Source of the DNA: Gammaproteobacteria bacterium
Lineage (GTDB): Bacteria > Pseudomonadota > Gammaproteobacteria > JAKDMP01
DNA: 43,458 bases
Direction of reading: 5' to 3'
Assembly (NCBI GenBank): GCA_027018875.1
Contig: JALUYA010000040.1
Coordinates: forward strand, 1 to 43,458
Shown here: in pieces, positions 6,494 through 27,600 of the stretch
Position numbering within the stretch: position 1 is the first letter of the stretch
How the letters are laid out: every line of letters starts with the position of its first letter
Translations under genes and position numbers: made by a program
The notes under the pieces: generated by a model
The model's input: the letters and a program-made list of their open reading frames with translations, nothing else
What the model was told of the DNA's origin: nothing
The model's database searches: none

Positions 6494-9400
6494 CCCTGCC
6501 CCAGCGGCACCCCAAGTTGCTGCGCTGCTTCGATTAGTGCCGGAGTCTCCAGTCCTTCGGTAACCAGCCCACGTCCGATATTCCGTGCCAGGTTAATCAG
6601 CGTCCATAGCAGCACCAGGGTGGACAGCGGTTCTTTAGGCAATTCGCGTATCAGATTTTGATCAATCTTTAATACATCCAGTGGATCGCGAACGACACGC
6701 AACAGGCTGGCGTAACCGGATCCCAGGTCATCCAGCGCCAGCCCGACGCCGGTGGTCTTGAGCGCACGGAGGGCGGCCTCTTGTTGTGGCTGGGTAATGT
6801 TTTCCGACTCCAACACCTCCAGGGTCAGTAGCTCGGCCGGGCAGTTGTTTGCTTTTAACCGTTCTTCGATATGCGCGGCTAAATTCGGCTCCAGCAGGCT
6901 CGAGGGTGCCAGGTTGATACTGATGGACCAGTCCAACCCCCGCTTTCTCCAATCGCCGAGATAATCGATGGCCTGGGCAAGCGTTAGCCAGAATAGCTGG
7001 TAGAGTTCATTGGCTCCCAGCAGCGGCAAAAATTGCCCGGGAAGGATCAGCGTGCCATCCTCGCATAGCAAACGGGCCAGCCCCTCGGCCTTGATCACCC
7101 GGCCACTTTCCAGATCGACGATGGGTTGCAGGTACAGGCGCAGACCGCCAGTGAAAAGACGCTCTCGCCACATCGCAGCCTGGTCGGCGGGAATCACCAG
7201 CGTGCTGCTTTCCCGTTGCCCCCACAGAACTTCGTACCGGTGTTGCAGGCTTTCCCCCCAGCGCCGGAAATCGTTGCCACTGAACTGATAGGGGTAGATG
7301 CCGAAAAGCTCCAGTACGACCGCGGCATGGCCCTGCTTGTCGCGGATAGGAATGGCCAGGGCGGAACGTGCGCCATGTTTTTGGGCAACCTTGCGCCAGG
7401 GGCCGAGGCCTTCTCCCACCAAGTAGTCGGCCACGTCATGGATGGTCAGATCCCGCCAGGCGCGTGCGACTATTCCCTGGCCACGTGGATGCTGCGGATC
7501 GGTCAGGATTTGATAATCGGGGCGGCTGACGACTTTCGCCGCGATCTTGCCGCTGACGCCCGCCATGGCCTCGATGATAAAGCGCCCCAGCGCATCGGGG
7601 CGCATCAACAAAACGGCCAGGACTCCGGGTAGATTCCCCAGGCGATCCAGCTCGGACTGGAGTAGATCGTGCCAGTTATGCATGGCCTCCTCGGGTAAGG
7701 GCTCCGTCAGGACACTGTAGTAGGCATCATGCACCATCGTTATAGAACGGATTTGGCCTTGCAGGTTAATATCGTGGCGGGCGACGATGACCCTAAGCAG
7801 CCGGTAGCGATCCTGGGAGTGCAAGGTGGAGCGATCCAGGGCTTCCACCAGTTGTTGCTGGTAGAATTCAAAATTACTCACCATCAGAGCACTGTCTACA
7901 CCCATCAGTGCCAGGACCCGGCCACGCTGGCGCGAGCGCTCGCACAGGGCTTCACGCGTGGTCTGCGGCGAAGTGATAAAGCGCAGGTGTTCAGCCTGGT
8001 CACGCCGCCAGCGTGCAAGGTCGTTCTCGTCTAGGCTGGAGAGGATTTTCGCGGCTTTGGGAACGGACTGGAAATGCCCGTAGAAGGCATCCATAAAGCT
8101 CTCGATCAAGCGATTGATGAAGTACTCATGGTTGGTCAACAGCGCCTGGGCGATGGGGCCGAAGGGGTCGATCTCGGCCTGCGGGGCTTCCTGGATCGCG
8201 GTGGTTCCGGTCAGCCACCACCAGCAAGTGCGTTCGGCCTTGTGCTGCTTGGCCTGATACATGGCGGCATCGGTCTGGCGCAGCAGGGCATCAATGGTAT
8301 CTCCCTTGTCAGCGATGGCCAGCCCCATAGTCATATCAATCAAAGTCTGGTGTTCATCACCCAAATCGAAGGGCGTCTCCACCACCCGATGCAAACGCTC
8401 AAGCAGGGTACGTAATTCGGCCAGATGGTTTTGGGGGTCAAGATTTTCGAAGACCACTACGAACTCGTCGCCGCCCAGACGGGCGACAAAGTCCGTTTCA
8501 CGCAAGATTTCGCGTAAACGCCCGGCCAGCTGCTTGAGTAGCTTATCCCCGGCCTGATGCCCCCAACGGTCATTGATCGGCTTGAAGTTATCCAGATCAA
8601 TGAAACCAACGGCGTAGCGTTTGTGATAACGCTGAGCACGAGCGGCGGCTTTGGGCAGATATTGTTCCAGGGTGTGCCGATTGGGCAACCCGGTAAGGGA
8701 ATCGTAAAAGGCAAGCTGCTGGATATGCGCCTCGGCCTGCTTGCGTTCGGTGATGTCGAGCTGTGCCACGACGGCACCTAGCAGGCGCCCATCGCCGGTG
8801 CGCAACTGCGTGGCGTTGCACAAGATGGAACGAGGCGGGTGCCCCTTGGGGATAATCGTTATTTCTTCGTCGCGGACCGTTTCGCCGTGCAGCGCCCGAT
8901 ACAGCGGGATGCGCTCGGTGGCCAGCGGCGTGGTACCGTCCGCCTCGTACAGATTGTAGTACCTGGCCCATTGCTGTGGCGGCAGATTCTGAAAATTGAC
9001 GATATGCCAGCGCTTGGCGGTTTCGTTGAACAGGAAAAGCCGCCCTTCCCCATCACAGGCCACCACCCCTACCGGCAAGGTTTCCAACAGGCGCCGGGTC
9101 ATTTCGCGCTCGGCCTGCAGGGCCTGTTCCTGGCGCTTGCGCTCGGTGATATCCTCGATCATCGAAACCGCGTAGGCCAGGCTGCCGTCCTCGTTGCGTA
9201 CCGCGCGTGGTGCGATGCGAACGTAAACCAGGCTACCGTCCTTGCGGATCAGCCGTTTTTCCAGGCTGTATTCTTCGTCTTTCCCGTTCACCAGGCGATT
9301 GAACGCAACTTCGCTTTCGGCGAGGTCATCGGGATGATGCAGATCCACCCAGGAGCAGGCATACATCTCCTCCTGGGTATAGCCGAGCATCCTGCAAAAC

Positions 9401-10098
9401 GATTCGTTGACTTCCAGCCAGGTGCGGTCCGGGCGCAATGCCGCCATGCCCACCATGGAACGATCGAAATAGGCGCGAAAGTGGCGTTGACTGGCTTGCA
9501 GCGTCTCAAGCGCCTTCCGGCGTTGCTGTTCCCGGTCGAAGTTATCGAGCGCGAAGCTGATATCCCGCGTCATTTCTTCAAACAGGGCGACGATCTCGGT
9601 GTCGAAAAATCCCTCGTCACTGTGGTACAAGGACAATTGTGCATAAGGTTGCGAGCCGCGCTGGATCGGGAAAGCCCCGCTGCTACCCCAGCCAAACCGC
9701 CGGCCCTGCTCGTGCCAGGGAGCGGTTCTTGGGTCTTGTGTGAAGTGATTGATGACAACCGAGCGGCCCTCCCGGAAGGCTGTGGCCGATGGCCCGTGCC
9801 CCTGCGGGGACGATGCGTTCGTGGAGGTTACGATGTGCTCGGCATATTCCGTCCCGATGCCATAGGCCTGCACCGCGACAAGGCACTCGGTTTTGGGCTC
9901 ACGCATGCCGATCCAGGCCATGCGTGCACCACCGAGATCCACCGCGACACGGCAAACGAGGGGGAACAACTCGGCCTCGTCGTGCATCCGCATGATGGCC
10001 TGGTTGATCTCGCTGAGTGCCTTGTAAAGCCGGGTAAGACGCAAGTATTGCATAGGAGAGCATGCCTCGGCGGGATGGTTGGGTGTTTTTCTATTCAT
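6166..10098 (-). CDS. GAF-PAS-PAS-GGDEF-globin-like-GAF-EAL c-di-GMP protein
   Basis: This 1310-aa soluble protein has GAF (about 30-190), PAS (205-320), PAS (330-452), GGDEF (460-625), a globin-coupled-sensor-like domain (650-800), a second GAF-like region (810-960) and EAL (970-1220), plus a tail of about 85 residues with a Trp/His/Cys pattern. The cyclase site GGDEF is intact at 542-546, with an inhibitory RxxD (RETD, 533-536) five residues before it. The phosphodiesterase residues are present: EGL at 1005-1007, the INLAPSSL Asn, ESEN, DDLGSG near 1123, KID and EGLET. Both activities are therefore possible. The globin-like domain has Leu729 where the heme-binding proximal His belongs, so it may not bind heme. 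The N-terminal coil plus GAF is closely similar to that of the 964-aa protein encoded at 21675-24569. Confidence 0.92.
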   Translation of the reverse strand: MNRKTPNHPAEACSPMQYLRLTRLYKALSEINQAIMRMHDEAELFPLVCRVAVDLGGARMAWIGMREPKTECLVAVQAYGIGTEYAEHIVTSTNASSPQGHGPSATAFREGRSVVINHFTQDPRTAPWHEQGRRFGWGSSGAFPIQRGSQPYAQLSLYHSDEGFFDTEIVALFEEMTRDISFALDNFDREQQRRKALETLQASQRHFRAYFDRSMVGMAALRPDRTWLEVNESFCRMLGYTQEEMYACSWVDLHHPDDLAESEVAFNRLVNGKDEEYSLEKRLIRKDGSLVYVRIAPRAVRNEDGSLAYAVSMIEDITERKRQEQALQAEREMTRRLLETLPVGVVACDGEGRLFLFNETAKRWHIVNFQNLPPQQWARYYNLYEADGTTPLATERIPLYRALHGETVRDEEITIIPKGHPPRSILCNATQLRTGDGRLLGAVVAQLDITERKQAEAHIQQLAFYDSLTGLPNRHTLEQYLPKAAARAQRYHKRYAVGFIDLDNFKPINDRWGHQAGDKLLKQLAGRLREILRETDFVARLGGDEFVVVFENLDPQNHLAELRTLLERLHRVVETPFDLGDEHQTLIDMTMGLAIADKGDTIDALLRQTDAAMYQAKQHKAERTCWWWLTGTTAIQEAPQAEIDPFGPIAQALLTNHEYFINRLIESFMDAFYGHFQSVPKAAKILSSLDENDLARWRRDQAEHLRFITSPQTTREALCERSRQRGRVLALMGVDSALMVSNFEFYQQQLVEALDRSTLHSQDRYRLLRVIVARHDINLQGQIRSITMVHDAYYSVLTEPLPEEAMHNWHDLLQSELDRLGNLPGVLAVLLMRPDALGRFIIEAMAGVSGKIAAKVVSRPDYQILTDPQHPRGQGIVARAWRDLTIHDVADYLVGEGLGPWRKVAQKHGARSALAIPIRDKQGHAAVVLELFGIYPYQFSGNDFRRWGESLQHRYEVLWGQRESSTLVIPADQAAMWRERLFTGGLRLYLQPIVDLESGRVIKAEGLARLLCEDGTLILPGQFLPLLGANELYQLFWLTLAQAIDYLGDWRKRGLDWSISINLAPSSLLEPNLAAHIEERLKANNCPAELLTLEVLESENITQPQQEAALRALKTTGVGLALDDLGSGYASLLRVVRDPLDVLKIDQNLIRELPKEPLSTLVLLWTLINLARNIGRGLVTEGLETPALIEAAQQLGVPLGQGYDIARPMPADELPGWAETFTLPVLPGRITTFAGALSRHWAWQHTHATSLTGYADCPLTAFFASRGLGDSEVAQWHRCIHTGGEKGEICSDLLLDWLAVKVREEGVGIK

Positions 10099-12725: not shown

Positions 12726-12755
12726 TTGTAAATTATATTATTCTAATATTAGAAT
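12726..12755 (+). promoter_or_regulatory. Predicted promoter of the DUF2892-arsR-efflux operon
   Basis: TTGTAA at 12726-12731 and TAGAAT at 12750-12755 are separated by 18 bases. The -10 differs from consensus by one base. The operator palindrome covers the spacer and the -10, so bound repressor would exclude RNA polymerase. Transcription would start near 12762. Confidence 0.5.
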
Positions 12756-12756
12756 A
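12739..12756. promoter_or_regulatory. ArsR-family operator, ATTC-N8-GAAT palindrome
   Basis: An 18-base perfect palindrome is centred at 12747/12748. Its core at 12740-12755 is ATTCTAATATTAGAAT, which is ATTC-N8-GAAT, the site recognised by the BigR/SqrR/YgaV group of ArsR repressors. It lies in a strikingly AT-rich patch of otherwise GC-rich DNA. The second gene downstream encodes a repressor of that group. Confidence 0.75.
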
Positions 12757-12824
12757 TACATTGTGCGGTGCTCGAATGAGCACTGCGAGGCAGACAATTT
12801 TTATCTATCAGCGCCTTTAGGTGC

Positions 12825-12830
12825 AGGAGG
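12825..12830 (+). promoter_or_regulatory. Ribosome binding site that decides a GTG start
   Basis: AGGAGG ends one base before an ATG at 12832, too close to serve it, and seven bases before an in-frame GTG at 12838. The GTG is therefore the likely start of the DUF2892 gene. Confidence 0.65.
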
Positions 12831-12837
12831 TATGGCA

Positions 12838-13077
12838 GTGAATACGGATCGATGGGTACTTTTCTTCGCCGGGATCATGGTGCTGGCGAGCGTGGTGCTC
12901 GGCGTATGGGTGAGTGAATGGTGGCTGATTCTGGCCGGGTTCGTCGGTTTGAATATGTTTCAGGCCTCGATGACCGGCTTTTGCCCGCTGGCCAAGCTGA
13001 TGTTCAGGCTGGGGGTGAAATCCGGCTCGGCCTTCACCTGTAGTGTGAATACGGCAAAGCAGGCGCAAGACGGTTGA
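12838..13077 (+). CDS. DUF2892 (YgaP-like) inner membrane protein
   Basis: This is a 79-aa protein with two membrane helices (RWVLFFAGIMVLASVVLGVW and WWLILAGFVGLNMFQAS) and the family motif TGFCPLAKLM, with a conserved Cys in the TGFCP turn. The same domain forms the C-terminal membrane part of E. coli YgaP, whose N-terminal half is a rhodanese; here the rhodanese is absent. It is the first gene after the ArsR operator and ends four bases before the repressor gene, a ygaP/ygaV-like pairing. A role in handling sulfane sulfur at the membrane is a reasonable inference but not shown. Confidence 0.82.
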   Translation: MNTDRWVLFFAGIMVLASVVLGVWVSEWWLILAGFVGLNMFQASMTGFCPLAKLMFRLGVKSGSAFTCSVNTAKQAQDG

Positions 13078-13081
13078 AGCA

Positions 13082-13408
13082 ATGGGAAACATGAGCCGTT
13101 TCGGAGAGCGGGAGCTGCGCCTCATGGAGACTCGCCTGGATGAGGCGAGCGCGCTGTTGAAGGCGATGGCAAGCCCGCACCGGCTGATGGTGTTGTGCAA
13201 TTTGGTGGGTACTGAATGTACGGTGAGCGAGTTGCAGATGCACTTACCGTTGAGTCAATCCGCGTTGTCCCAACATCTTGCCGTACTCCGCCATGAACGG
13301 TTGGTGCAGACCCGCCGGGAGGCCCAGTCGGTGTATTACCGGCTGGTGCCCGGTCCCGCGTTGAAGCTGATCGAACAACTGCATGATGCCTATTGTGTGC
13401 GTGAGTGA
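13082..13408 (+). CDS. ArsR-family repressor of the YgaV/BigR/SqrR persulfide-sensor type
   Basis: This 108-aa winged-helix repressor shows LLKAMASPHRLMVLCNL, ECTVSELQ, SQSALSQHLAVLRHERLVQTRR and SVYYRL. Cys39 in the LC motif and Cys105 near the C-terminus match the cysteine pair that forms a sulfur link in BigR, SqrR and YgaV when reactive sulfur species are present. A third cysteine, Cys46, is extra. It lacks the CVC metal site of ArsR/SmtB metal sensors. The ATTC-N8-GAAT operator upstream supports autoregulation of the operon and control of the efflux genes behind it. Confidence 0.85.
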   Translation: MGNMSRFGERELRLMETRLDEASALLKAMASPHRLMVLCNLVGTECTVSELQMHLPLSQSALSQHLAVLRHERLVQTRREAQSVYYRLVPGPALKLIEQLHDAYCVRE

Positions 13409-13438
13409 GAACCGCAGAGGATTGGTAGAGGTATGCAA

Positions 13439-14917
13439 ATGAGAATACGACGAATGGGGGTCGCGCTGGGCGGCGGCTACCTGGTATTGGCGGTTGCCGG
13501 TATCCCGGCGGCCTGGGCCGTGACGCCTGTTCCGGCGCCGGTTTTCCCGGCTGCCGCGGCGAGGACGGGCCGGGTACAGCGGCTGAGTTTTGTCGCCGGC
13601 GTTATCCGGGCCCTGAAGGGGAGTCCCGCCGCGGCCCGGGCGGCGGCGCGGGTACGCGAGGCGCAATCGGCCATCACGCAGATCCGCGGGTATCGCCTGC
13701 CGCGACTGGTTGCCGGCGTGACCGGCATGCGCACCAATAACGCCTTGAACGTATTCGGCTCCAAGCTGCAGCAGCGGCGGGCGAGCTTTAATGATTTTGG
13801 ATTTGCCGAGTTCAACCCGAACAACCCGGCGATTGAGCCGCGGGCGTTGAATTATCCGGGGGTTTACGATAATTTCAATACCCGGCTCACCTTGCAGATT
13901 CCGCTTTGGGAGGGCGGTCGGCTCACGGCCATGGCCGCCGCGGCCCGGGACGGCCTGGCGGCCGCTCGGGCCGGGGATCGGGCCGCGAGACAGCAACTGA
14001 TCTTCCGTTTATTGCAGGCCTACGAGGGGGTGCGCGCCGCGCGGGCGTTTGTGCGGGTTGCGATCCAGGGTGAGAAGGCCGCCGCGGCCTACGCCGGGAT
14101 AAGTCGGCAAATGTATGCCCGCGGTATCGTCGTAAAGAGTAACCTGTTGACCGCGCAGGTCCACCTGGGGGATGCTCGCTTGCGGGTCGCCGCGGCCCGC
14201 AACGCCGCGGCCAGGGCACTGGAAGTTTTTCATATCGTCATGGGGGAACCGGCCGACGCTCGCCTGGATGTCGGAGCGGAATTTCTGCCGCCGATGCCCC
14301 GGATATCCTTGACGGAACTCCACCGCGAGGCCCTGGCGGCCAATCCGGCATTCCGGGCAATCCAGGCCCGGCGGGCGATGCGCGCGGCCGGGGTCTCCCA
14401 GGCCGGAGCGGCCTATTGGCCGCGGATCAATCTGGCGTTGATGGCGAACTGGAACCGGGAAACTCCGGGGCTCGGTGCGCGCTCCTATACGGCAGTGGCC
14501 AACCTGTCTTGGCAGCTGTTCGATCTGGGGGCCCGCCGCGGTGCCGTGGGCCGCGCCCTGGCGGTTGAGGATCAGGCCCGGGCCGAGCAGCGGGCGTTTC
14601 GGGAAAGATTGATCCACCGGCTCGATAACGCCTACCGCAATGCCTTCCTGGCGCAGCAACAGATCACGGTGCGCACCCTGGCGGTGCGCCAGGCGGGAGA
14701 GGCCGAGCGAATCCTCGCCGCACGCTATGGCCGGGGGATTACCACGCTCGCGACACTGCTCGCCGGGCAGGCGCGCCTGGACAAGGTACGGGCGGACCTG
14801 GTTCAGGCCCACTATCGGCTGGCGGTGGCCCGGGCGGCGATTTGGCTGTCGATTGGGCGATTGAATTTGGCTCAGGTTCAACACTGGGCCGGTATTTCTT
14901 CGAAGGGAGAGCAATGA
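13439..14917 (+). CDS. TolC-family outer membrane efflux protein
   Basis: This 492-aa protein has a signal peptide (MRIRRMGVALGGGYLVLAVAGIPAAWA) and two repeats of the outer membrane efflux fold with long alanine- and arginine-rich helices. Characteristic pieces are QIPLWEGGRLTAMAAAARDGL, ISRQMYARGIVVKSNLLTAQVHL and ANLSWQLFDLGARRG. Trimers of such proteins form the outer membrane exit duct of tripartite pumps. The ATG at 13439 has an AGAGG site seven bases upstream; the ATG at 13433 is only one base from it. The adaptor gene follows after one base. Confidence 0.9.
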   Translation: MRIRRMGVALGGGYLVLAVAGIPAAWAVTPVPAPVFPAAAARTGRVQRLSFVAGVIRALKGSPAAARAAARVREAQSAITQIRGYRLPRLVAGVTGMRTNNALNVFGSKLQQRRASFNDFGFAEFNPNNPAIEPRALNYPGVYDNFNTRLTLQIPLWEGGRLTAMAAAARDGLAAARAGDRAARQQLIFRLLQAYEGVRAARAFVRVAIQGEKAAAAYAGISRQMYARGIVVKSNLLTAQVHLGDARLRVAAARNAAARALEVFHIVMGEPADARLDVGAEFLPPMPRISLTELHREALAANPAFRAIQARRAMRAAGVSQAGAAYWPRINLALMANWNRETPGLGARSYTAVANLSWQLFDLGARRGAVGRALAVEDQARAEQRAFRERLIHRLDNAYRNAFLAQQQITVRTLAVRQAGEAERILAARYGRGITTLATLLAGQARLDKVRADLVQAHYRLAVARAAIWLSIGRLNLAQVQHWAGISSKGEQ

Positions 14918-14918
14918 G

Positions 14919-16001
14919 ATGAAATTCCATGTAAAAGGGATGGTTTACGGGTCGGCAATAGGGCTCGTGGCGTTGAGCTTGGCAGGCTGCGGCGGCGCTC
15001 GCCCGGTGGGGCAAGCCGGCGGCAAGGCCGTCGGGGTTCAGGTTCGGACGGTGCGCCCCGTGCCGGTCCAAGCCTATGCCACGATGCCCGGAACCGTCGT
15101 ATCGGCCAATCGGGTGGCGGTTGCTTCGCGCCTGATGGGCTATATCCGCACAATGGCGGTGCATGTGGGCGAGAAGGTTCATGCCGGCCAGCTCTTGTTC
15201 CGCGTTGATTCGACCTCGGTACGGGCCAGGATCCGCCAGGCGGGCGCCGGTCTGGCGCGGGCGCAGGCTAATTGGTCCGCGGCGGAATCAACCTATCGGC
15301 GTTTCGCTCCATTGGTAAAGACCGGTGCGGTATCCCCCCAGGAATTCGACCGGATCCGCGCCGCTCACCGGGCGGCCCGGGCCGGTGTCGCCGCGGCCCG
15401 GGCGGGGCTTAGCGCGGCCCGATCACAATTGAGTTATGCCCAGGTGCGGGCGCCGGTCGATGGGATCGTTGCGGTCAAGTTGGCGAATGTGGGCGATATT
15501 GCGGCGCCGGGACGGCCGATCCTGATGCTTGAAAACCCGGCGCATCGCCAGGTTCGGTTTACGGTAACCGGAGCAACGTTTGCCCGGATGCGCCTGGGTG
15601 AGACGGTCGAGGTACAGGGAGAGTCCGCCGCGCCGATCGAGGCGGTGCTCGAGCGCTTGGTCGCGGCGGCCGATCCGGTGACGCATACGCATCTTGCCAA
15701 GGCCGGATTGATGCCCGGGGCGCCCTTCGACGTGGGTTCCTATGTCACCGTCCGGGTGCCGGTGGGGCGGACGGAGGCGATCGTGGTGCCCGCGGCGGCG
15801 GTGGTGCTACGGGCCGGGTTACGCGGCGTATTTGTCGTCACCGGTAAGAGTCGGGCCCAATTCCGCATGGTAAGAACCGGCCCGGCGGTTCCCGCGGGGG
15901 TTATCGTGCTTGCGGGGCTTGCCGCGGGGGATCGGGTGGTGGTTCATAGTACCCGGCCACTGGCCAACGGGGACCGGATCCAGGTGGAGGCCGGCCGATG
16001 A
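14919..16001 (+). CDS. RND periplasmic adaptor (membrane fusion) lipoprotein
   Basis: This 360-aa protein begins with a lipoprotein signal ending in LAGC (Cys24). A barrel-sandwich domain (VASRLMGYIRTMAVHVGEKVHAGQLLF and VRAPVDGIVAVKLANVGDIAAPG), a helical hairpin (about 100-165), a beta-barrel (FTVTGATFARMRLGETVEV) and a membrane-proximal part follow. Adaptors of this kind link the inner membrane pump to TolC. The start has an AGGGAGAG site. The stop overlaps the RND gene by four bases (ATGA). Confidence 0.92.
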   Translation: MKFHVKGMVYGSAIGLVALSLAGCGGARPVGQAGGKAVGVQVRTVRPVPVQAYATMPGTVVSANRVAVASRLMGYIRTMAVHVGEKVHAGQLLFRVDSTSVRARIRQAGAGLARAQANWSAAESTYRRFAPLVKTGAVSPQEFDRIRAAHRAARAGVAAARAGLSAARSQLSYAQVRAPVDGIVAVKLANVGDIAAPGRPILMLENPAHRQVRFTVTGATFARMRLGETVEVQGESAAPIEAVLERLVAAADPVTHTHLAKAGLMPGAPFDVGSYVTVRVPVGRTEAIVVPAAAVVLRAGLRGVFVVTGKSRAQFRMVRTGPAVPAGVIVLAGLAAGDRVVVHSTRPLANGDRIQVEAGR

Positions 16002-19000
16002 ACCACTCGGAGCAGTCGCCTCGACGGTCGGAAAAGGATACGGGTATGCCCGGGGAGCTTAATTCGGCGGGGCGGCTGGCGAAGCTGTTCCTGCACACCA
16101 AGATCACGCCGTTGATCATGCTTGCGATTACCCTCTTCGGTCTGCTTGCGGTGGCGGCCACACCTCGGTTGTATAACCCGGAAATCGTGGTTCCGGCGGC
16201 GCAGATTATCGTCGCCCGCCCGGGCAATTCGCCGGAGCAGATCCTGAACCAGGTGGTGCGCCCACTCGAGCAGCTGATGGCCTCGATCAAGGGGGTCAAG
16301 CATACCTATGGCTATGCGACCAACGATGTCGGCGTGGTGACGGTACAGTTCAAGGTGGGGGCCAACGAAACCTCGAGCCTGGTGTATCTCTATAACGAGC
16401 TGCAGCGAAATCTCGATCGCTTGCCGCCCGGCACGCGCATGCCGCTGGTCAAGAGTATCGGCATCAATGATGTGCCGATCATGGCGATTACCCTCAGTTC
16501 CAAAACCGTACCGCCTACCCGGCTGCGGCGGGTCGCCGAGCGGTTTCTGGCCCAGTTGCATACGGTGCCGAATGTGGGCCTGAGCCAGGTTATCGGCTGG
16601 CAACCCGAGGCGGTGCGGATCGAGGTGAATCCCCAGCGGCTGGCGAGTGCCGGGATCGCGCTGAACCGCTTGCTCGATGTGCTGCGCGGCTCGAACGTGG
16701 TATTGCCGGGGGGACGGTTGGTAACCGGCGGGAAAGTGATTCCGCTGCGGGTCAACGCAACCTTCGGTTCGATCCGCAATCTGGGTGATATCGTAATCGG
16801 CGCCCATAACGGGCGGCCGGTCTTTCTCAAAAGCGTGGCCCGGATCGTCAAGGGACCGCGAAATCTCGATGAGACCTCTTGGTTTGCTTATGGTGCGGCC
16901 GCGGATGGCCATGTCGCGAACGCGGCCCGGGCCGCCATAACGATTACTCTCGGCAAGCGCGCCGGGACCAACGCGGTGACGGTGGCCCGGGCGGTGAAGA
17001 GCAAGCTGGCGCTGCTCGAGCGCGAAGCGCTGCCGGCCGGGGTTACGGTACACATCACCCGTGACTACGGCCGCCGGGCCAATGAGGCGGTCAACGCCTT
17101 GCTCGAACACCTGCTGGTTGCGATCGGGGTGGTGCTGATTATCCTGTTTTTCTTCCTCGGGTGGCGCGAGGCCCTGATCGTGACCGCGTTGGTGCCGCTA
17201 ACCCTGTTCGTCGTGCTGGGCATCGGCATGGCCATAGGCCAGACGATCAACCGGATCACCCTGTTTGCACTCATCTTGTCGCTGGGTCTGTTGGTCGATG
17301 CCGGCATCGTGGTGATCGAAAATATCCATCGCCACATTCACCTGCGATCGCGTCTACCGGGGCATTTCTCGGGGCTGGTGGTGCGGGCCACCAACGAGAT
17401 CGGCAATCCGACGAATATAGCCACCCTGGCGGTGATTTTGGCGTTTTTACCGATGCTGTTCGTCACCGGGATGATGGGGCCGTTCATGCGTCCGATCCCG
17501 ATCAATGTGCCCATCGCCATGGTGGCCTCGTTGCTGCTTGCCTATATCGTGGTGCCCTATGTCGCCGTGCGCTGGTTGCATCGCAAGGCGGCCCAGGAAG
17601 ATGCCTTGCGTCGCCACGCCCTCGATGAGGAGGAGCCGGAGCAGGCGGATCGGCTCCAGCGCTGGTACAAGGCGGTCTTCGTGCCGTTGCTGGACAGCCG
17701 GAGTAAGCGCAACATTCTGTTTGCCGTGGTGGCGCTGCTGTTGCTCGGCTCGATGTTGATGCCGCTGTGGCAATTCATTCGCCCGCAGGGGGTGAACGGA
17801 GCGGAAAGCTTGCTGGGGGTGAGCCTGAAGTTGTTGCCCGAGGGTAACGTGAATACCTTTACCTTGCAGATTAAAACGCCGGCCGGAACCGCGCTCGATA
17901 ATACCCAACGGGTCGCCCAGGCCGTGGGTGAGGTGATCGGGCGCAACCGTTATGTCCGGGATTACGTAACCTACCTGGGACGCACCGGTCCGCTGTCGTT
18001 TGCCGGCATGGTACGTGGCGACCAGATGCTGCGGGGCGCAAATGTCGCGCAGATCGTGGTTAACCTGGTTCCCAAGGAAGAGCGCCCGCATACCGCGGTC
18101 ATTGCCGATTCGCTCTGGCGCACCCTGGCACCGGTGCGTAAACGCTTTCTCTCCACGCACATCATGCTGTTTCTCACGCCACCCGGTCCGCCGACCCGGG
18201 CGCAGGTGGTGGCGCGCATCTATGGCCCGAATTACCAGACCCTGCGTCGGATCGGGCGCTCCGTGGAGACCGATTTCCGCAAGGTCTACCAGATGACGGA
18301 TGTGCATACCAGCATTACCACAACCCGGCCCGAGTATCTGATTCGTGTCAACCAGGAAAAGGCCATGCTCTCGGGGGTTGCCCCGGCCCAAGTGGCGGGA
18401 CTGGTCCATGAGTATGTTGCGGGGACGACCATCGGTTCGGTATTTACGCCGAGCGTCGAACCCGAAAATATTATCGTGCGCCTGAGCCGTGAGGATCGCG
18501 CCTGGATTCAGCAGATGCGGGATCTGACCATCCGCAACGCGATGGGCAAGGCGGTGCCCCTGGGCGGACTGGTCACGATTCGCCAGGCTACGGTGCAGAA
18601 ACCGATTCTGACTCAGGATGGACATCCGGTGGTGTATGTGATGGGCGATACCCTGGGGTTCTCTCCCGAGTATGCCGCTCTGGCGCTGGATAAGTGGCTG
18701 GACGGGAAACGCCTCGCGGGCGGGGTCAAGCTAACCACGGGTAACCTGGGGTTCACCGATAGCCAGCCGAACGGCATCAGCCGTTACCAGATCTTGTGGG
18801 GCGGCGACATGCGCCTCACGCTGGATGTATTCCGCGATTTGGGGGCGGCCTTTATCGTTGCGGTAATTTTCATCTACCTGCTTCTGGTGGCTTACTACCA
18901 GTCATTTATTTTGCCGTTAATCGTCATGGGCGCCATGCCGTTGACCCTGGTCGGGATCTTTCCGGGGCACTGGATTTTCCACATGCCCTTTAATGCGACT

Positions 19001-19330
19001 TCGATGATCGGGTTTATTGCTCTGGCGGGTATCGTGGTGCGTAATTCTCTATTGCTGATTGACTTTATTCTCGATTACCGCAAGCGTGGCTACAGCCTGC
19101 GCGAATCGGTCATCGAGGCCGGTGCCGTGCGGTTCCGCCCAATTCTTTTGACCGCCCTGGCGATTATTTTCGGCTCCGCGGTCATGGTGAGCGATCCGGT
19201 ATTCGGTGGGCTGGCCATCGCCCTGATTTCCGGGACGTTCGCCTCGACCGTGTTGACCCTGATTATCATCCCACTGTTGTACCTGCTGTGGCAGCGCCGG
19301 GAGGGCGGGCACCCGCCCCGGATGGAGTGA
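15998..19330 (+). CDS. RND-superfamily efflux transporter permease
   Basis: This 1110-aa protein has the AcrB-like plan: one helix, a large periplasmic loop, six helices, a second loop and five helices. The first loop includes ARPGNSPEQILNQVVRPLEQ. In helix 4 the usual Asp-Asp pair is Asp434-Ala435 (GLLVDAGIVVIEN), and near helix 10 the usual Lys is Arg1015 (GIVVRNSLLLIDF). This marks a subgroup different from AcrB/MexB drug pumps and without the heavy-metal (CusA) pattern. The substrate cannot be read from the sequence. Control by the sulfur-sensing repressor suggests export of sulfur-derived or sulfide-induced compounds. Confidence 0.92.
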   Translation: MNHSEQSPRRSEKDTGMPGELNSAGRLAKLFLHTKITPLIMLAITLFGLLAVAATPRLYNPEIVVPAAQIIVARPGNSPEQILNQVVRPLEQLMASIKGVKHTYGYATNDVGVVTVQFKVGANETSSLVYLYNELQRNLDRLPPGTRMPLVKSIGINDVPIMAITLSSKTVPPTRLRRVAERFLAQLHTVPNVGLSQVIGWQPEAVRIEVNPQRLASAGIALNRLLDVLRGSNVVLPGGRLVTGGKVIPLRVNATFGSIRNLGDIVIGAHNGRPVFLKSVARIVKGPRNLDETSWFAYGAAADGHVANAARAAITITLGKRAGTNAVTVARAVKSKLALLEREALPAGVTVHITRDYGRRANEAVNALLEHLLVAIGVVLIILFFFLGWREALIVTALVPLTLFVVLGIGMAIGQTINRITLFALILSLGLLVDAGIVVIENIHRHIHLRSRLPGHFSGLVVRATNEIGNPTNIATLAVILAFLPMLFVTGMMGPFMRPIPINVPIAMVASLLLAYIVVPYVAVRWLHRKAAQEDALRRHALDEEEPEQADRLQRWYKAVFVPLLDSRSKRNILFAVVALLLLGSMLMPLWQFIRPQGVNGAESLLGVSLKLLPEGNVNTFTLQIKTPAGTALDNTQRVAQAVGEVIGRNRYVRDYVTYLGRTGPLSFAGMVRGDQMLRGANVAQIVVNLVPKEERPHTAVIADSLWRTLAPVRKRFLSTHIMLFLTPPGPPTRAQVVARIYGPNYQTLRRIGRSVETDFRKVYQMTDVHTSITTTRPEYLIRVNQEKAMLSGVAPAQVAGLVHEYVAGTTIGSVFTPSVEPENIIVRLSREDRAWIQQMRDLTIRNAMGKAVPLGGLVTIRQATVQKPILTQDGHPVVYVMGDTLGFSPEYAALALDKWLDGKRLAGGVKLTTGNLGFTDSQPNGISRYQILWGGDMRLTLDVFRDLGAAFIVAVIFIYLLLVAYYQSFILPLIVMGAMPLTLVGIFPGHWIFHMPFNATSMIGFIALAGIVVRNSLLLIDFILDYRKRGYSLRESVIEAGAVRFRPILLTALAIIFGSAVMVSDPVFGGLAIALISGTFASTVLTLIIIPLLYLLWQRREGGHPPRME

Positions 19331-19468
19331 GGGCGATCCGGGGTGGCAGGCGGCGGGCATATCCGGCCCGCCGCTCTTTCCCGGATTTTTACCGTGCCCC
19401 ACGCAAGCGCGAGAACTCTGGGAGTTACTATAGAGGCATTCCCGTCATTTTTAATCGGGCAGGGTGCC

Positions 19469-21286
19469 ATGCGTGCTGTATTGACTCTTATTCTGATTTT
19501 TATTGGTGTGTCTCCGTTTTTCGCCACCGCTGCGGCCCCTGGAGCCGGGCAGCAACTGCAGGCGCTGATCGCCCGTGCCTGGCGTCAACACCTGGCGAAT
19601 AACCCGCTCGAGGCGTCGCTCGAGGGCTATCACCGTTACGATGGCCTGTGGCCGGATCCGAGTCTTGCCCGGCAACGGCGGGAAGCGCGCGAAGCAGGGG
19701 AAAATCTCGCCGCCTTGAAGCGCATCGAGCCGGCGGATCTGACGCCCGCGGAACAACTCGATTACCGTCTGTTCGAGTACCGGCTCCGCGACGAGATTGC
19801 CGGCTACACTCAGAAAGATGGCGCCCTGTTGCTGATAAACCAGTTATGGGGGCCGCAGCTTCTCGGTACTACCGCGAAGCAACTGCGCTTCGAGACTCCC
19901 GCAGATTACCACAACTGGATCAAGCGCTTGCGGACTATCGGGCACTACCTCGACGCGTTCACCCGGCGGTTGCAACGCGGGTTGCGCCGCGGCGTGAGTC
20001 AACCGCGGAGCATCATGCAACGGGTTCCGGCGGAGATCGCGGGGGAGATCTCGCCTGATCCGGAGAAAAGCCCCTTTTACGCTCCCTTCAGGAGGATGCC
20101 GGAGACGATCTCGGCGGCCCGGCAGAGCTGGCTTCGGGCGCAGGCAAAGGCCGCCATCGTGCAGGAGGTCAATCCCGCCTACAAGCGCTTCGCCAGGTTC
20201 ATCAACAAGGTCTATATTCCCCGCGCCAGAACTTCCGTCGGCGTGGCGGCATTGCCGGGGGGCCGGGCGTACTACCGCTACCTGGTGCAACACTTCACGA
20301 CAACCACCATGACTCCCGCGCAGATCCACGGACTGGGCTTGCGCGAAGTCGCACGGATTCGGGCCAAGATGGAGCAATTATTTCATCACATCGGCTTTAA
20401 GGGGAGTTACCGGGAGTTCCTGCGGTACCTGCGTACCGACCCGAAGTTTTATTATGCGCGGCCTGCCACCCTGCTCGAGGCCTATCGCGCGGCGGCCAAG
20501 AAGGTGGATCCGTACCTGGTGAAGATTGTCGGGACCTGGATGTTACCGCGCGTACCCTATGGCGTGCGCCCGATTCCCGCGGCACTGGCCCCCAACACGT
20601 ACCCCGCGTACTCGGTGCCGCCCGCCGGTGACGGCAGTGTTGCCGGCTATGTGGGCGTCAACCTTTATCGACCCCGGACCCGGCCCAAGTATGACATCCA
20701 GGTCCTCATGTGCCACGAGGGTCGTCCCGGGCATCAGCTTCAAATCCCACTGGCGATGGCACTACGCCATTTGCCGCCGTTCCGGCGTTTTGCCTATTAC
20801 AACGTCTACGGCGAGGGCTGGGCCCTGTATGCCGAGACCTTGTGCAATGAACTCGGGCTTTATGACAATCCTTACTCGCGGTTCGGCTATCTGAACTACC
20901 AGATGTGGCGTGCCGTGCGGCTCGTCGTCGATACCGGCATTCATTCCGGCGGCTGGAGCCGCGAACGCGCGATTCGCTATATGGAAGAAAATACGGCGCT
21001 TTCCGACCAGAACATCACCAACGAAGTGAACCGCTATATTGCCTGGCCGGGCCAGGCGCTTTCCTACCTGATCGGGGAGCTGCATATCCTCAAGCTTCGC
21101 GATGAAGCGAAGCGGGAGCTGGGCACGAAATACTCCCTGCGCGACTTCGATGACGTGGTACTCGGCGAAGGCAGCCTGCCGATGCCGGTTCTTACCGATG
21201 TCGTGAACCGCTGGATCGCCCATACGCTCGCCGGTAGGCCGGCCGAGCAGTTGCCCTATGCGAGGCGGCCCCGCAGCCTGAATTAA
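19469..21286 (+). CDS. Secreted DUF885-family peptidase-like protein
   Basis: From the ATG at 19469 the protein has 605 aa with a signal peptide (MRAVLTLILIFIGVSPFFATAAA). The family hallmarks are HEGRPGH at 416-422, EGWALYAE at 449-456 and GGWSRERAIRYME. These give the HExxPGH-like metal site and downstream Glu seen in DUF885 proteins, which are related to M32-type carboxypeptidases. It is likely periplasmic and zinc-dependent. The longer frame from 19343 lacks family similarity, and the signal peptide supports the chosen start. It lies 138 bases after the RND gene, so it may be co-transcribed or independent. Confidence 0.85.
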   Translation: MRAVLTLILIFIGVSPFFATAAAPGAGQQLQALIARAWRQHLANNPLEASLEGYHRYDGLWPDPSLARQRREAREAGENLAALKRIEPADLTPAEQLDYRLFEYRLRDEIAGYTQKDGALLLINQLWGPQLLGTTAKQLRFETPADYHNWIKRLRTIGHYLDAFTRRLQRGLRRGVSQPRSIMQRVPAEIAGEISPDPEKSPFYAPFRRMPETISAARQSWLRAQAKAAIVQEVNPAYKRFARFINKVYIPRARTSVGVAALPGGRAYYRYLVQHFTTTTMTPAQIHGLGLREVARIRAKMEQLFHHIGFKGSYREFLRYLRTDPKFYYARPATLLEAYRAAAKKVDPYLVKIVGTWMLPRVPYGVRPIPAALAPNTYPAYSVPPAGDGSVAGYVGVNLYRPRTRPKYDIQVLMCHEGRPGHQLQIPLAMALRHLPPFRRFAYYNVYGEGWALYAETLCNELGLYDNPYSRFGYLNYQMWRAVRLVVDTGIHSGGWSRERAIRYMEENTALSDQNITNEVNRYIAWPGQALSYLIGELHILKLRDEAKRELGTKYSLRDFDDVVLGEGSLPMPVLTDVVNRWIAHTLAGRPAEQLPYARRPRSLN

Positions 21287-21674: not shown

Positions 21675-24569
21675 CTAACCCCGCGTGGGCGGATCGGGCG
21701 GGGGCTCCGCATTGGGTGTTCTCCGGGCACGTTGGCGCAGCCACGCTTCGAATGCCGGCACTTCAAGCGGCCGACTGATGAGATACCCCTGGGCGGTGTC
21801 GCAGCCGAGCGCCCGTAGCGCCTCGCACTGGGCCGTGGTTTCCACGCCTTCGGCGATCACCTGGAGTCCGAGTCCGTGCCCGAGTGCAATCGAGGCCTCG
21901 ACCACGCTGCGCGCCGCCGGGTTCTCGAACATCGCACGGATAAAGCTGAGGTCGATCTTGATGGCATCCAGCGGCAGGGCTATCAGGTGGCTCATGGTGG
22001 CGAAGCCGGTACCGAAGTCATCGAGATAGAGCGAAAAACCGAGTGCTTTAAGCGTCTGTAAAACGCCCGCCGTATTTTCGACATCGGTTACCGCAGCCGT
22101 TTCGGTGAGTTCTACGGCGATTCCGACCCGCTTCGGGTCCAACCCGGAGTAAGCCAACCGTTCACGAACCAAGGTGACGAATTCGGTGTCGGCGCAATCC
22201 CGGGCGGATAAATTGATCGAGATGACGCCGGGTTCGACTCCCGCCGTCTGCCAGGCATGCAGCTGGGCAAACGCCGCTTCCATGACCCACTGGCTGATGC
22301 GCCGGATTTGCCCGGACTGCTCGGCCGCCGGAATAAATTCCCCCGGGGGTACATCGCCGAGCGTCGGGCTGCGCCACCGCAACAGGGCCTCGGCACCGAG
22401 TACCCGCCCGCTCGCCAGATCGACGTGGGGTTGATATACCAGGCGGAACTCCTCGTCGAGATGGGCCCGCTCCAGGGTTCGCAGAAGTTCGAATCGATGT
22501 TTTTCCCGGGTCTCGAGCGTGGCGGAGTAAAAGGCCAGCCGGCGCTCGGTCGTCGGTGCCAGGGAGCGCACGGCGAGGGCGGCGCGGTGGATCAGGGTTT
22601 CGATGTCGACACCGGCGGTAAACGGCTCGATGCCCAGCCGTGCGCTCAGGCGGATGGGTTCGCCCGCGACCGATAATTCGAGTGGAAACACCGAAAGCAG
22701 ATTCAGGGCGCAGTCGGTTACCTCCCGCTCCGGGCGGGTGCGCCAGGCGATGAGAAAATCATCCTCGCCACGGCCGGCGAGCAGGTCATCGGTTGTCAGC
22801 CGGGTGGTGAGGCGGGCGCCAATCTGGCGCCGCAGGCCATCGACGGTTGCCCGACTGTGGCGGGTGCGCAATTCGGCCATCTGCTCTACTTGGAGCACGC
22901 CCACGGCAAGATTTTCTTCGGTATCGAGAGCGGCCTCTGTGGCGGCGAACCATTGGGAAAAACGGTGGTGGTTCACCAGCCCGGTGGCGGCGTCATGGTT
23001 CATCAGCCAATCGCGCTGGCCCTCGATTTGCAGGAAGTTCATCCCAAAGGCAATATCCTTGGCCAGTTCGCGGTACACATTGAACGAGGCCTTGTCAAAG
23101 GCGTTTACCGTCGCCGCGTACAGGGTCAGATTGCCGAAAATGTGTTCCCCATAGGCCAGGGGAAAGGTCAATGCCGCACGGCAGTCCAGGGCGAGGAGCG
23201 CCTCGCGCCAGGGTGTCATCCGCGGGTCGGACTCGATGTTCTGTACTACCTGGGGGGCTCCCAGCCGCAATGCCGGGCCGACGGTGCCACTGCCTTCGGG
23301 GACGGTGTCGTCGGCGGAGACGGTCAGTCCCTCGAGAATTTTGCGGCCCGGACCCGCCTGGGCCGCGACCCGCACCCGCCCGGTGGTGGGTTCCACCTCG
23401 CCGATCCAGGCCATGCGCAGGCCGCCTTGCTCGACGGCGATATGACAGGCCTCCTGGAGGAATTCGCTCCGGTCGTGCATACGCAGGAGCACCTGGTTGA
23501 TCCCGCTGAGCGTTTGGTAGGCGCGGCTCAGCCGCTGGATCTGCTCCAGTTGATCCTCGAGGGTTCGGCGGCTCTGCTTTATGCGCGCCGCCAACCGGTT
23601 GAATCCCCGGGCGAGGGTGCCGAATTCGTCGCGGCGGGTGCCGAGGGGGCTTCTCGCCGTTTCGTCGCCGGCGCCGAACCGCTCGATGGTATCGAGCAAT
23701 CCCCGTATCGGGCGGTCGATCCAGATTTTCCCCATTAAGGCAAAAATCGTCAATAATGCTATCAGGATCGCTACTCCCAGCCCCAGGGTTTCAAGCATAA
23801 TCCGGTGGACCGGGCCGAACAGGTACGCCTCGGGAATTCCCACGAGCAGGTAGGCGACCGACTTGTTGCCGAGGCGCAGGGGGGTGCTGATGTAAAGGCG
23901 GCGGATGCCGTCCACTCCCGTGGCCGGGAGCGCGTGAAGCGTGGCGGTGCGGCGCCGGGCCCAGATCTTTGCCAGCGAGGACGGCAGTGGCTCGCCGATC
24001 CTGCGGGGGGTGCCCGGCCAGCGGGCGCGGATCTGTCCTGCCCGGCTCACCAGGATGAGGCTCGCGCCGCGGGGCAGGAGATCCCGCGCCAGGCGCCAGG
24101 TCAGCAGCCCCGGGCGGGTATCGAGCAGGAGCCGGCCGCCGTCCGGCAGGGGGGATTGCAACAACCAGGAGGGGGGATGTTCCGCTTGCTCCGTGGCGGG
24201 GACGGTGGGGGTGGTCCCGGTGCCGGGCGCGAGCGAGCCGACACCGCAGCGCTTGCGTCCGTTCGCTCCCACCACCGCGATTCCGGTTATGTGCGAGTCG
24301 AGGTTTACTACCCGGGCGAGAGCGGCGGGACAGTGCCCGGAGGGGGCCTCGTACATGGCCGGCATTGCGGCGAGGAGCGACGCCAGGGTTTTGAGACGGT
24401 GCAGATCTTCGGTGTAATCCCGGCTTTCCGCGCGGGCGATGAGTAGGGTCGTTTTTTCGGTATTTGCGCGCAGGACGCTATGCTCGCGCCAGGCGGCGAA
24501 GAACACCGTGCCTACGGCGGGCAACGCCGCGGCGAGAATCAGCCAGGTAAATCGGCGGCGGATGTTCAT
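21675..24569 (-). CDS. Membrane sensor with HAMP-GAF-degenerate GGDEF-EAL (probable c-di-GMP phosphodiesterase)
   Basis: This 964-aa protein has a membrane helix (8-26), a periplasmic sensor region (27-257), a second helix (258-280), HAMP (280-333), a coiled segment, GAF (355-515), GGDEF-like (520-690) and EAL (700-948). At the cyclase site it reads GEDDF (601-605), so synthesis is unlikely. The EAL residues are complete: EAL at 727-729, INLSARD, ELTET, DDFGTG near 850, KID, EGVET and QGY. It should degrade c-di-GMP in response to a periplasmic signal and possibly a GAF ligand. The coil plus GAF resembles the N-terminus of the 1310-aa protein, suggesting a shared input or recent duplication. 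AGGTTGAG precedes the start. Confidence 0.92.
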   Translation of the reverse strand: MNIRRRFTWLILAAALPAVGTVFFAAWREHSVLRANTEKTTLLIARAESRDYTEDLHRLKTLASLLAAMPAMYEAPSGHCPAALARVVNLDSHITGIAVVGANGRKRCGVGSLAPGTGTTPTVPATEQAEHPPSWLLQSPLPDGGRLLLDTRPGLLTWRLARDLLPRGASLILVSRAGQIRARWPGTPRRIGEPLPSSLAKIWARRRTATLHALPATGVDGIRRLYISTPLRLGNKSVAYLLVGIPEAYLFGPVHRIMLETLGLGVAILIALLTIFALMGKIWIDRPIRGLLDTIERFGAGDETARSPLGTRRDEFGTLARGFNRLAARIKQSRRTLEDQLEQIQRLSRAYQTLSGINQVLLRMHDRSEFLQEACHIAVEQGGLRMAWIGEVEPTTGRVRVAAQAGPGRKILEGLTVSADDTVPEGSGTVGPALRLGAPQVVQNIESDPRMTPWREALLALDCRAALTFPLAYGEHIFGNLTLYAATVNAFDKASFNVYRELAKDIAFGMNFLQIEGQRDWLMNHDAATGLVNHHRFSQWFAATEAALDTEENLAVGVLQVEQMAELRTRHSRATVDGLRRQIGARLTTRLTTDDLLAGRGEDDFLIAWRTRPEREVTDCALNLLSVFPLELSVAGEPIRLSARLGIEPFTAGVDIETLIHRAALAVRSLAPTTERRLAFYSATLETREKHRFELLRTLERAHLDEEFRLVYQPHVDLASGRVLGAEALLRWRSPTLGDVPPGEFIPAAEQSGQIRRISQWVMEAAFAQLHAWQTAGVEPGVISINLSARDCADTEFVTLVRERLAYSGLDPKRVGIAVELTETAAVTDVENTAGVLQTLKALGFSLYLDDFGTGFATMSHLIALPLDAIKIDLSFIRAMFENPAARSVVEASIALGHGLGLQVIAEGVETTAQCEALRALGCDTAQGYLISRPLEVPAFEAWLRQRARRTPNAEPPPDPPTRG

Positions 24570-24698: not shown

Positions 24699-27600
24699 TC
24701 AGCGCGTGAGCGGCGCTTCTTCTCGACGAATGCGCTTGATTAGTGCCGCGATCAGAAGAGTGCGTGCCTGGCGATAGGCGTCGCTTTTAAGCCCTTGGCG
24801 GAATATCTCCCACGGTAGGGTATGGCGAATTATGTCAACTCCAGATCGAGCCGCGGCAAGGCCGTCAAAATAACCGCCGAGGGCGGATTTGTACTCTTCA
24901 AACGTCCGCATGGCCCCGTGTTTTCCAAGGCGAATTAGGGTATCCGAGGACCATTCCCAGGCCAGGAAGAGCGCGAGGGCACCGAAGGCGTAGCGGGGTG
25001 GGGCAGTTCGCTCGGGAGGGGGACTCCAGCCTTTCCGGGCGCGGGCGAGGAACGCTGCCGGCAGCAGTGGACGGGAGATTGTATAGCCTTGGGCGAGATC
25101 GACTCCAAGGCGGTGGATGGCCTCGAAAATACCCGGTGTCTCGACGCCCTCGGCGATCACGGTGAGATCAAGGTGGCGGGCAAGCCGGGTGATCCCGTCG
25201 ATTAGTGCAAGGATCCGCTCGGGATCGTTTCCGGCCCCGCGGACCAGGCCTTGATCGATTTTGACCGCGGCGAAGGGCAGGTGGCGAAGGCGGGCAAGCG
25301 AGCTGTAGCCGGCGCCGACATCGTCCTCGGCAAAAAGGACGCCGAGCCGGTGCCAACGATCGAAGACCTCGCTCCAGTGCGGCAGAGCCTCGGCGATAAT
25401 CTCCTCGTTCTCGAGCAGTTCGAGATACAGTACCCGCCCCGCGGGCGGCGGATGGGCTTCGAGTAGCCGGGCGGTGATCTCGAAGTAGCGGGCCTGGGTC
25501 AGCGCCGATGGCGCCAGGTTAAGTGTCATATCGATGCCGAGGCCCGCCTCGGCCCAGGTGCGGGCGTGCGTGAGTGTCTGTTCGAGCCCGCGGGCGTAGA
25601 GGTCGAAGAGATTATCCCCGTCGAAGGCTGGAAGGAAGCGATACGGGCTGACCCATTCGCCGTTGACCTTGAGCCGTGCGAGGGCCTCGGCCTTGACCAC
25701 TTGGGCGGTGGTTACATCGAGTACCGGCTGGTAGTGCATCACCAGTCCGGGGCCGGCGAGTGACTCGATCCAGCCCCGGCGTTCGGGGGCGGTTACCGGG
25801 CCCGGATCGGGCAGGAGGCTCAGGGCCGCGATCAGTTCGCTGCGAACCCGGGAGAGGAAGCTGCGCTGCGGTGTTCCCGAGAACCCCCCGGGGAAGGGAG
25901 AGAAGATCCATAGCGATCCACCGCCGGGGACTGCGGATAGATCGATCGCGGCAAACGAACGCAGCCCCGCCGCGGTCAGCCGGGCCTGCAGCATGGCGTC
26001 GAGTGGGGCGGTGTCGAGGGCGAGGCAATGGGTCAAGGCGGGCTTGTCGTCGCCCAGTGGCCGGGCCGCGGCGGCGAGGGCGTCCAGGTCCGTGTCTTGC
26101 AGCAGCGCGGCGAGATATCCCTCCGGGCAGCAGGCCGTGAGCCCCAGGCCCCCTGCTTCCCGGTGGTGTACCCAGGCGAGTACGGGATGTGCCAGGGCTG
26201 CATGCGTCGTTTGACTGAATTCGTGACATAGCGTATCGAACAATCCCAGGCGGCCGCCGTCGCGTCGCTGACAGGTGTCGGCGAGCCTGCGCAGTGTCGC
26301 ATCGCGTTCCCGGACAAGGTCGGCGTAGCCCGCCAATTGTTCCTCGGAATCGATACCGAGGCGCTTCACCAGTACCGGGAGGGCGTGAGTGGCGGCGCTA
26401 TGAGGTTGTAACTCCTGCACCAGTCGGGCGGTGTAGATCTGGTAGGACCAGACCAGGTCGGCGCTGCCGAGGCCGATGAGGCTGTGGATCTGCCCCAAGC
26501 GGCGGGCCATCGCCCGCTGTTCGGACTCTTCCAGGTGGGGGGCGACCAGGCGACGGAAGTGCCCGGCCTGTTGTGACTTGAGCCGGGTGAGCCCCCCGGG
26601 AGAAAGGGCCGCAAGCAGGCGGGACGTTTGTTCGCGGCGGGCGAGATCACGGTGAAATATTTCAATGAAACGCGTGAGGATGGCTTCCAGGGCGGGAGCG
26701 GCGCATTCGAGGGTTCGAGCGGCTTCGGGGCCGTAGGCGGAGACCAATGCAGGCGGCGTGTTCTTCCCGGTGCCGCCGGGAGCAGGATCGCCGGCGGGAA
26801 TTTCCTCCCCGTCCAGGGTCCACCAGCGTGTCCGGGTGGCCTTCGCCGCCTTGGCACGGTAAAGCGCTTGGTCGGCGCGGCGCAGGAGTAGCCCGGTGGA
26901 TGTCGAATCACCTTCTGCGCCGTCAGGGGAGGGATAAACAACCACGCCGGCACTGGCTTCAATGCGGATTTCGATATTTCCGGCGAGTGGAATCGGATCG
27001 CGGATCGATCGCTCGAGACGCTCGAGCAGGGGGACCAGCGGTTCGTGGCCGGTCAGATCCTCGAACACGACCAGGAACTCGTCGCCGCCGAGACGGGCAA
27101 GAAAGTCTTCGCGCCGCAGCACCGTACGCATTCGCCGGGCGAGGGCGATCAGCAGTTGATCCCCGGCCGCATGGCCATAGGTATCGTTGACGGGTTTGAA
27201 ATCGTCGAGGTCGAGATAGCCGAGCGCGAGGAAGTGCCCATGGCGGTTGCTGCGGGAGATGGCCCGCTCAAGGTGTTCCTCCAGGCCGCGGCGGTTGGGA
27301 AGTCCGGTCAGCGGATCGTGCCCGGCGAGGTTGGCGAGGCGCAGGCGTTGGTCGAGTTCGTCGAGGCCGTGGCCGATGAGGCGGGCGATGCGGGCCAGGC
27401 CGGCGCACATCGGTTCGTCGAAAAGCCGGCGTTCGGCGCCGGCCACCGCCAATGCGCCCCAGTGATGCCCGCCGCGATGCACCGGCGCCGCGGCCCAGGT
27501 TCGCCAGCCGAGACCGGGCGGCACCCCGGCCGCGTGAGGATCGCCCTGTACCAGCCGGTGGGCATGCAGTGCCCGCCGGGTGATGGATGCCTCGTCCAGG

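Follow-up and report, generated by a model that had tools for sequence, protein, structure and literature searches.

Repressors of the ArsR family that carry two reactive cysteines and respond to sulfane sulfur include SqrR, BigR, HlyU, YgaV, SoxR, and sHdrR, and in the characterised members persulfides induce a polysulfide bridge between the two cysteines, upon which the protein is released from DNA (PMC10509353, PMC12423496). Here we describe an operon at positions 12832 to 19330 of a 43,458-nucleotide contig of a Gammaproteobacteria bacterium (JALUYA010000040.1, the whole of which is hereafter called the window), which encodes a small DUF2892 membrane protein, an ArsR repressor, and a complete tripartite RND efflux pump. 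It resembles the systems named above in the repressor fold, the Cys pair, an A+T-rich dyad operator lying over the promoter, and sulfur-type neighbours, but it differs from their operons in joining DUF2892 and the repressor to a tripartite pump, with no sulfur-oxidising enzyme. The ygaVP operon of Escherichia coli likewise places a repressor of the same family beside a YgaP-type transmembrane protein and has TTAG-type half-sites at its start site; however, YgaP has a rhodanese domain, which the window DUF2892 protein lacks, and ygaVP includes no pump. The BigR operon (bigR, persulfide dioxygenase, and membrane proteins) is governed by the same type of regulator but makes persulfide dioxygenase and small transport proteins instead of a tripartite pump. 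The first-pass annotation held that the known operons contain mainly sulfur oxidation or YgaP-type genes; section 2.1 of Li et al. 2025 (PMC12423496) already reports that genes for two-Cys sulfane-sulfur ArsRs can have RND efflux pumps as neighbours, so that the association of repressor and pump is not new in itself. What is added here is an operator, its putative regulon, and the trans-regulated relatives of the pump. According to our analysis, which rests on sequence comparison, the operon is likely to be inducible by reactive sulfur species (RSS) and controlled by the two-Cys ArsR.

Among solved structures, the window ArsR is closest to HlyU, BigR, and SqrR, followed by NolR and YgaV, and the metal sensors rank far lower; its similarity to the first three settles the predicted fold. 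The proposal of the first-pass annotation that this is a repressor of the YgaV/BigR/SqrR kind with Cys39 and Cys105 is confirmed by alignment, since both residues fall on the two reactive cysteines of HlyU, BigR, and SqrR; they are invariant among 14 aligned ArsRs including YgaV, and a third cysteine, C46, is not conserved. C39 lies in alpha2 and C105 in alpha5, the arrangement of the RSS sensors in cluster 4 of the ArsR sequence similarity network, and the ranking of HlyU, BigR, and SqrR above every metal sensor points to the same cluster. By analogy with the characterised members, we infer that the window ArsR would undergo persulfide chemistry and derepression. The nearest ArsR paralogue in the genome is 46% identical, carries both cysteines, and lies directly before a TauE/SafE exporter gene (L164:6984-8118, contig C32).

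Two other readings of the sensor bear on this assignment. A repressor of metals, metalloids, or organotins, with a pump removing that toxicant, would agree with a score above the cut-off of the generic metalloregulator model NF033788 and with the induction of ygaVP by tributyltin that is cited in PMC9774250, but NF033788 covers the ArsR/SmtB subfamily broadly, and the alpha2/alpha5 Cys pair belongs to cluster 4, which is described as not obviously metal-sensing; together with the points from the pump and the regulon given below, this makes such a reading very improbable. It is also quite unlikely that the signal is peroxide or disulfide stress, and not persulfides, and that the repressor detects it by forming a disulfide between C39 and C105. 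The disulfide reported for XfBigR (quoted in PMC9774250) and the thioredoxin and glutaredoxin genes found near some pump loci or sites would fit, whereas neither H2O2 nor disulfides react with HlyU, SqrR, or AbBigR, all three of which do react with persulfides (PMC10509353), and the adjacent alpha3 cysteines of the RexT-cluster peroxide sensors are absent from the window ArsR.

The gene set and order given in the first-pass annotation were borne out by open reading frame, Pfam, and NCBIfam analysis: the five genes listed in Table 1 are all intact and form a single tight operon, the spacings being 4 bp, 24 bp, and 1 bp and, between adaptor and permease, a 4-bp overlap. Permease, periplasmic adaptor, and TolC-type channel thus stand within one operon, as a tripartite RND pump requires. 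The cysteine of the DUF2892 protein is kept in 20 of 20 aligned copies, the window copy counted, and the sole cysteine of the adaptor lies near its N terminus in LSLAGC, which by eye resembles a lipoprotein signal.

Table 1. Promoter, operator, and gene features of the pump operon in the window
Feature	Position	Strand	Description
Promoter-like site	12726..12755	+	Sigma-70-like, TTGTAA-18-TAGAAT; overlapped by both operator elements
Conserved operator element AAATTATATTATTCTAATAT	12730..12749	.	ATATTAG-N6-CTAATAT with 2 mismatches
Perfect 18-bp palindrome TATTCTAATATTAGAATA	12739..12756	.	ATTC-N8-GAAT form, deduced SqrR site
DUF2892 / YgaP-like transmembrane protein	12832..13077	+	YgaP-type membrane protein, 81 aa; PF11127, 41 bits, above cut-off; Cys in GFCPL
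Two-Cys ArsR repressor	13082..13408	+	SqrR/BigR/HlyU/YgaV type; HTH_5, 42 bits; C39 and C105
TolC-family outer-membrane channel (TolC/OEP)	13433..14917	+	494 aa; PF02321
RND periplasmic adaptor (RND_mfp)	14919..16001	+	360 aa; TIGR01730, above cut-off
AcrB-type RND permease	15998..19330	+	1110 aa, no Cys; PF00873, 509 bits

The ATTC-N8-GAAT operator noted previously is present as ATTCTAATATTAGAAT (12740-12755) inside the perfect palindrome that overlaps the promoter, and it has the form that Balasubramanian et al. 2022 (PMC9774250) quote for the deduced SqrR site. In its bare form the pattern occurs twice in the window, against 0.56 expected, and 35 times in the genome, the copy at 12740-12755 being the only one with a fully palindromic A+T core; TATTCGTATATACGAATA, of the same form, precedes the ArsR genes of loci L009 and L021. 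The promoter-like site matches 9 of 12 consensus positions and is weak alone, as a 10-kb scan gave 5 such sites versus 3.0 expected. As in SqrR-type systems, a predicted A+T-rich operator lies over the promoter. ATTC-N8-GAAT alone was rejected as a common operator, since a search of the relatives returned almost nothing; they have in common the half-site CTAATAT/ATATTAG instead, which led to the search for ATATTAG-N6-CTAATAT. In the window, AAATTATATTATTCTAATAT is the sole match to this motif with two or fewer mismatches in the 2.2-Mb genome, and the best genome-wide; this element, which is the one common to the relatives, is centred 8 bp upstream of TATTCTAATATTAGAATA and extends with its right arm into the left arm of that palindrome. 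A regulon of 3-mismatch sites in the window genome was discarded as chance (21 sites versus 29 for the control), and the pump site alone was kept. One 3-mismatch copy stands right before a rhodanese gene (L205:1386-1827; contig C46:10307-10748), such matches being at chance level genome-wide.

The comparison with other genomes used about 79 related permease loci from a permease search, one genome per species, scanned with profiles grown from the window proteins, and three further pump loci (L006, L008, and L030) from an ArsR-first search. CTAATAT or ATATTAG is present in 40 of 77 upstream regions (320 bp) versus 4 of 1507 other tiles, and the full motif at three or fewer mismatches gave 60 matches in 29.6 kb of control regions versus 21 in 892 kb elsewhere, an approximately 86-fold enrichment in the control regions of related RND pumps. 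Its occurrence extends to 15 of 24 ArsR-linked and 34 of 55 unlinked pump loci. When the test was anchored on ArsR (49 loci), the motif was 33-fold enriched within 350 bp upstream, with 13 sites at two or fewer mismatches versus none for the reversed motif. It stands directly before DUF2892 in L010, L014, L025, and L035 and, with two mismatches, before a metallo-beta-lactamase-fold gene (product assigned by eye) in L024, a further likeness to the BigR operon. NolR, a relative, binds (A/T)TTAG-N9-A(T/A), and in E. coli the ygaV promoter contains TTTAG-N6-CTTAA twice around its mapped start site, near which YgaV leaves a footprint. Tandem operators 16 bp apart, as seen in L006, L008, L142, L146, L148, and ygaV, were rejected as a general feature, the offset profile reflecting only self-overlap of the motif. 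ATATTAG-N6-CTAATAT is a predicted operator found across Gammaproteobacteria and, of what is added here, the part most worth following.

In the gene-order search in other genomes that the first-pass annotation had called for, 18 of the approximately 79 loci from the permease search had an ArsR close to the pump and 16 had DUF2892; as such an ArsR occurs roughly once in 3 Mb, some 0.3 would be expected by chance for the former. Both cysteines are present in all pump-near ArsRs except three (L140, L149, and L150); these are fusions of ArsR with rhodanese that are encoded divergently from the pump, the rhodanese part being recognised by eye (DVR/DIR, CRGxYC). In these fusions (L140:2726-3430, L149:2725-3405, and L150:8830-9510) a C-terminal rhodanese-like domain accompanies the loss of the two ArsR cysteines beside a pump with DUF2892, and possibly they are sensors using the rhodanese Cys. 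On the permease tree the ArsR link was gained or lost about ten times. On the ArsR tree, built from 107 columns and with many unresolved forks, pump-linked regulators are scattered, with 13 label changes of which at least four are forced by supported branches, and therefore different two-Cys ArsR lineages have joined the same pump family repeatedly. In the window lineage, the ArsR/DUF2892 pair is placed inside the pump operon itself.

The exact core TATTAG-N6-CTAATA has 53 copies in 34 genomes, 0 to 5 per genome, versus one for the reversed pattern. These genomes were chosen for having the pump, so that the pump sites are not independent, and about 30 sites lie elsewhere; the content of the putative regulon was taken from 33 stretches around exact-core sites. 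A sulfide:quinone oxidoreductase (SQR), whose best structure match is mitochondrial SQOR, and SoxB (TIGR04486, above cut-off) adjoin motif sites, and ATP sulfurylase, DUF2892, thioredoxin, and cytochrome bd subunit I (CydA) were verified beside others. From a sulfide response one would expect members such as cytochrome bd, SQR, Sox, and DUF2892. In L270 and L292 a site precedes tolC, which fits pumps with no channel gene in their own operon. No metal-resistance genes were noticed in the stretches around the sites, a further point against a metal-sensing repressor. All 12 motif genomes tested have a top-scoring two-Cys ArsR, and both cysteines are kept in 31 of 31 ArsR loci inspected. Two observations from the same stretches concern other products. 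In L284, L285, L286, and L287, which belong to relatives of the window pump, the exact core lies before or beside a FadL/TodX-type porin gene (verified in L285), which conceivably serves hydrophobic sulfur uptake or export. In two genomes distant from each other, the gene immediately following the operator encodes a member of a family of 140- to 150-amino-acid proteins (L276:1279-1698 and L281:1227-1676); neither protein matched Pfam or NCBIfam and that of L276 had no significant match in the PDB, and the candidate assignment as a sulfur oxygenase was rejected on these grounds.

The pump shares with AcrB/MexK/MdtB-type (HAE-1-like) RND pumps the three-part architecture, the proton relay Asp, and the Arg of transmembrane segment 11. 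Its permease belongs to the broad AcrB/multidrug class and forms a subfamily of its own, scoring below every curated NCBIfam permease cut-off. D434, R1015, and R1045 are invariant in the 79 permease sequences, as a working proton relay would require, but the subfamily differs from the AcrB/MexK/MdtB type in that Arg replaces the relay Lys in 79 of 79 and that the second relay Asp varies, being Ala in the window permease and 16 others and Gly in one. Membership among the heavy-metal (HME) RND permeases is not supported (TIGR00914, 286 versus 701 bits), which also argues against a metal sensor with a metal pump. The absence of Cys from the permease was considered as an adaptation to sulfur and rejected, since the unlinked relatives are equally poor in Cys.

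With the same sensor and regulation, the pump might have a non-sulfur substrate, expelling hydrophobic or thiol-reactive toxicants or protecting the envelope where sulfide is a sign of anoxic or toxic surroundings. Such a role falls just short of an even likelihood in our judgement: the multidrug class of the permease, its lack of Cys or of an obvious sulfur-binding feature, and the motif before FadL-type porins and TolC are consistent with it, as are the altered antibiotic tolerance of YgaV mutants and the derepression of ygaVP by tributyltin described in PMC9774250, whereas the persistent pairing with DUF2892 and the regulation in common with SQR, SoxB, ATP sulfurylase, and cytochrome bd suggest a more specific sulfur role. 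A sulfur species as the pump substrate is a possibility that we regard with some doubt.

Control by a two-Cys, RSS-responsive ArsR is the reading we prefer for the regulatory part, because the operator, the Cys pair, the conserved neighbours, and the cross-genome regulon agree, and a reactive-sulfur or sulfide-stress regulon very probably includes the pump. Several findings weigh against it. The ten closest relatives of the window pump (63 to 72% identity) have no local ArsR or DUF2892; inspection of the pump protein sequences revealed no feature tied to a sulfur substrate; the exact core is missing from 8 of the 34 genomes scanned for the motif; and sites also precede genes for FadL-type porins, citrate synthase, acetolactate synthase, and a BepA-type protease, in which a sulfur role is not evident. 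The ArsR scores 89.8 bits against the 155-bit cut-off of the strict NCBIfam BigR equivalog NF040642, for which reason we name it a two-Cys ArsR of the SqrR/BigR type and not BigR. Finally, a motif before every trans-acting ArsR gene was expected, but copies there are mostly weak or absent; as the ArsR genes of the trans-regulated genomes mostly have no strong copy, binding of the motif in trans by that ArsR is what we infer. Even so, the simplest account of these comparisons would be a reactive-sulfur regulon run by a two-Cys ArsR, with the pump family as a regular member.

In the mechanism we propose, a dimer of the two-Cys ArsR on the A+T-rich operator covering the -35 and -10 elements (12726-12756) would block its own operon. 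Sulfide stress would raise persulfides and polysulfides, a polysulfide bridge would join C39 and C105, and the repressor would leave, whereupon DUF2892, the repressor, and the TolC-adaptor-RND pump would be made together. We conjecture that the pump rids the cell of something formed under sulfide stress, such as polysulfide, a low-molecular-weight persulfide, S8, or an S-conjugate, and that DUF2892 may act on the same chemistry in the inner membrane. Of the first-pass interpretation, control of the pump by a reactive-sulfur-type repressor stands on the operator, Cys pair, neighbours, and regulon; the implied export of sulfur species does not follow, since RSS-responsive expression alone does not imply an RSS substrate. 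More tentatively, and with greater doubt than for a sulfur substrate as such, this distinct RND subfamily of Gammaproteobacteria and a few other Proteobacteria could be devoted to carrying reactive sulfur out of the cell, whether as polysulfide, low-molecular-weight persulfides, S8, or S-conjugates, and the operator ATATTAG-N6-CTAATAT would place it in a single RSS regulon together with SQR, Sox, cytochrome bd, and its TolC.

Downstream of the permease and in the same direction, the window encodes a DUF885 protein (19343-21286); a scan with DUF885 of loci around related RND permeases found no counterpart there, and it was therefore not counted as an operon member. The operon is flanked by very large signalling proteins (6166-10098, 21675-24569, and 24699-28373), the first two with GGDEF/EAL-like sequences recognised by eye. 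At 1180-2929, an AbiEii-type nucleotidyltransferase toxin (PF08843) and the partner open reading frame upstream of it probably form a type IV toxin-antitoxin pair.

In the open-access literature, subscription papers lying outside the scope of the search, we found no prior study of such a pump, of the operator ATATTAG-N6-CTAATAT, or of its regulon. To our knowledge, the disposal of polysulfides and persulfides by means other than oxidation is poorly known. Regulator, operator, pump, and companion genes can now be named; across many genomes, related pumps and sulfide genes carry this same operator. If RND pumps do take part in sulfide tolerance, this would tie sulfide exposure to efflux capacity and would bear on the reported effects of H2S on antibiotic tolerance.

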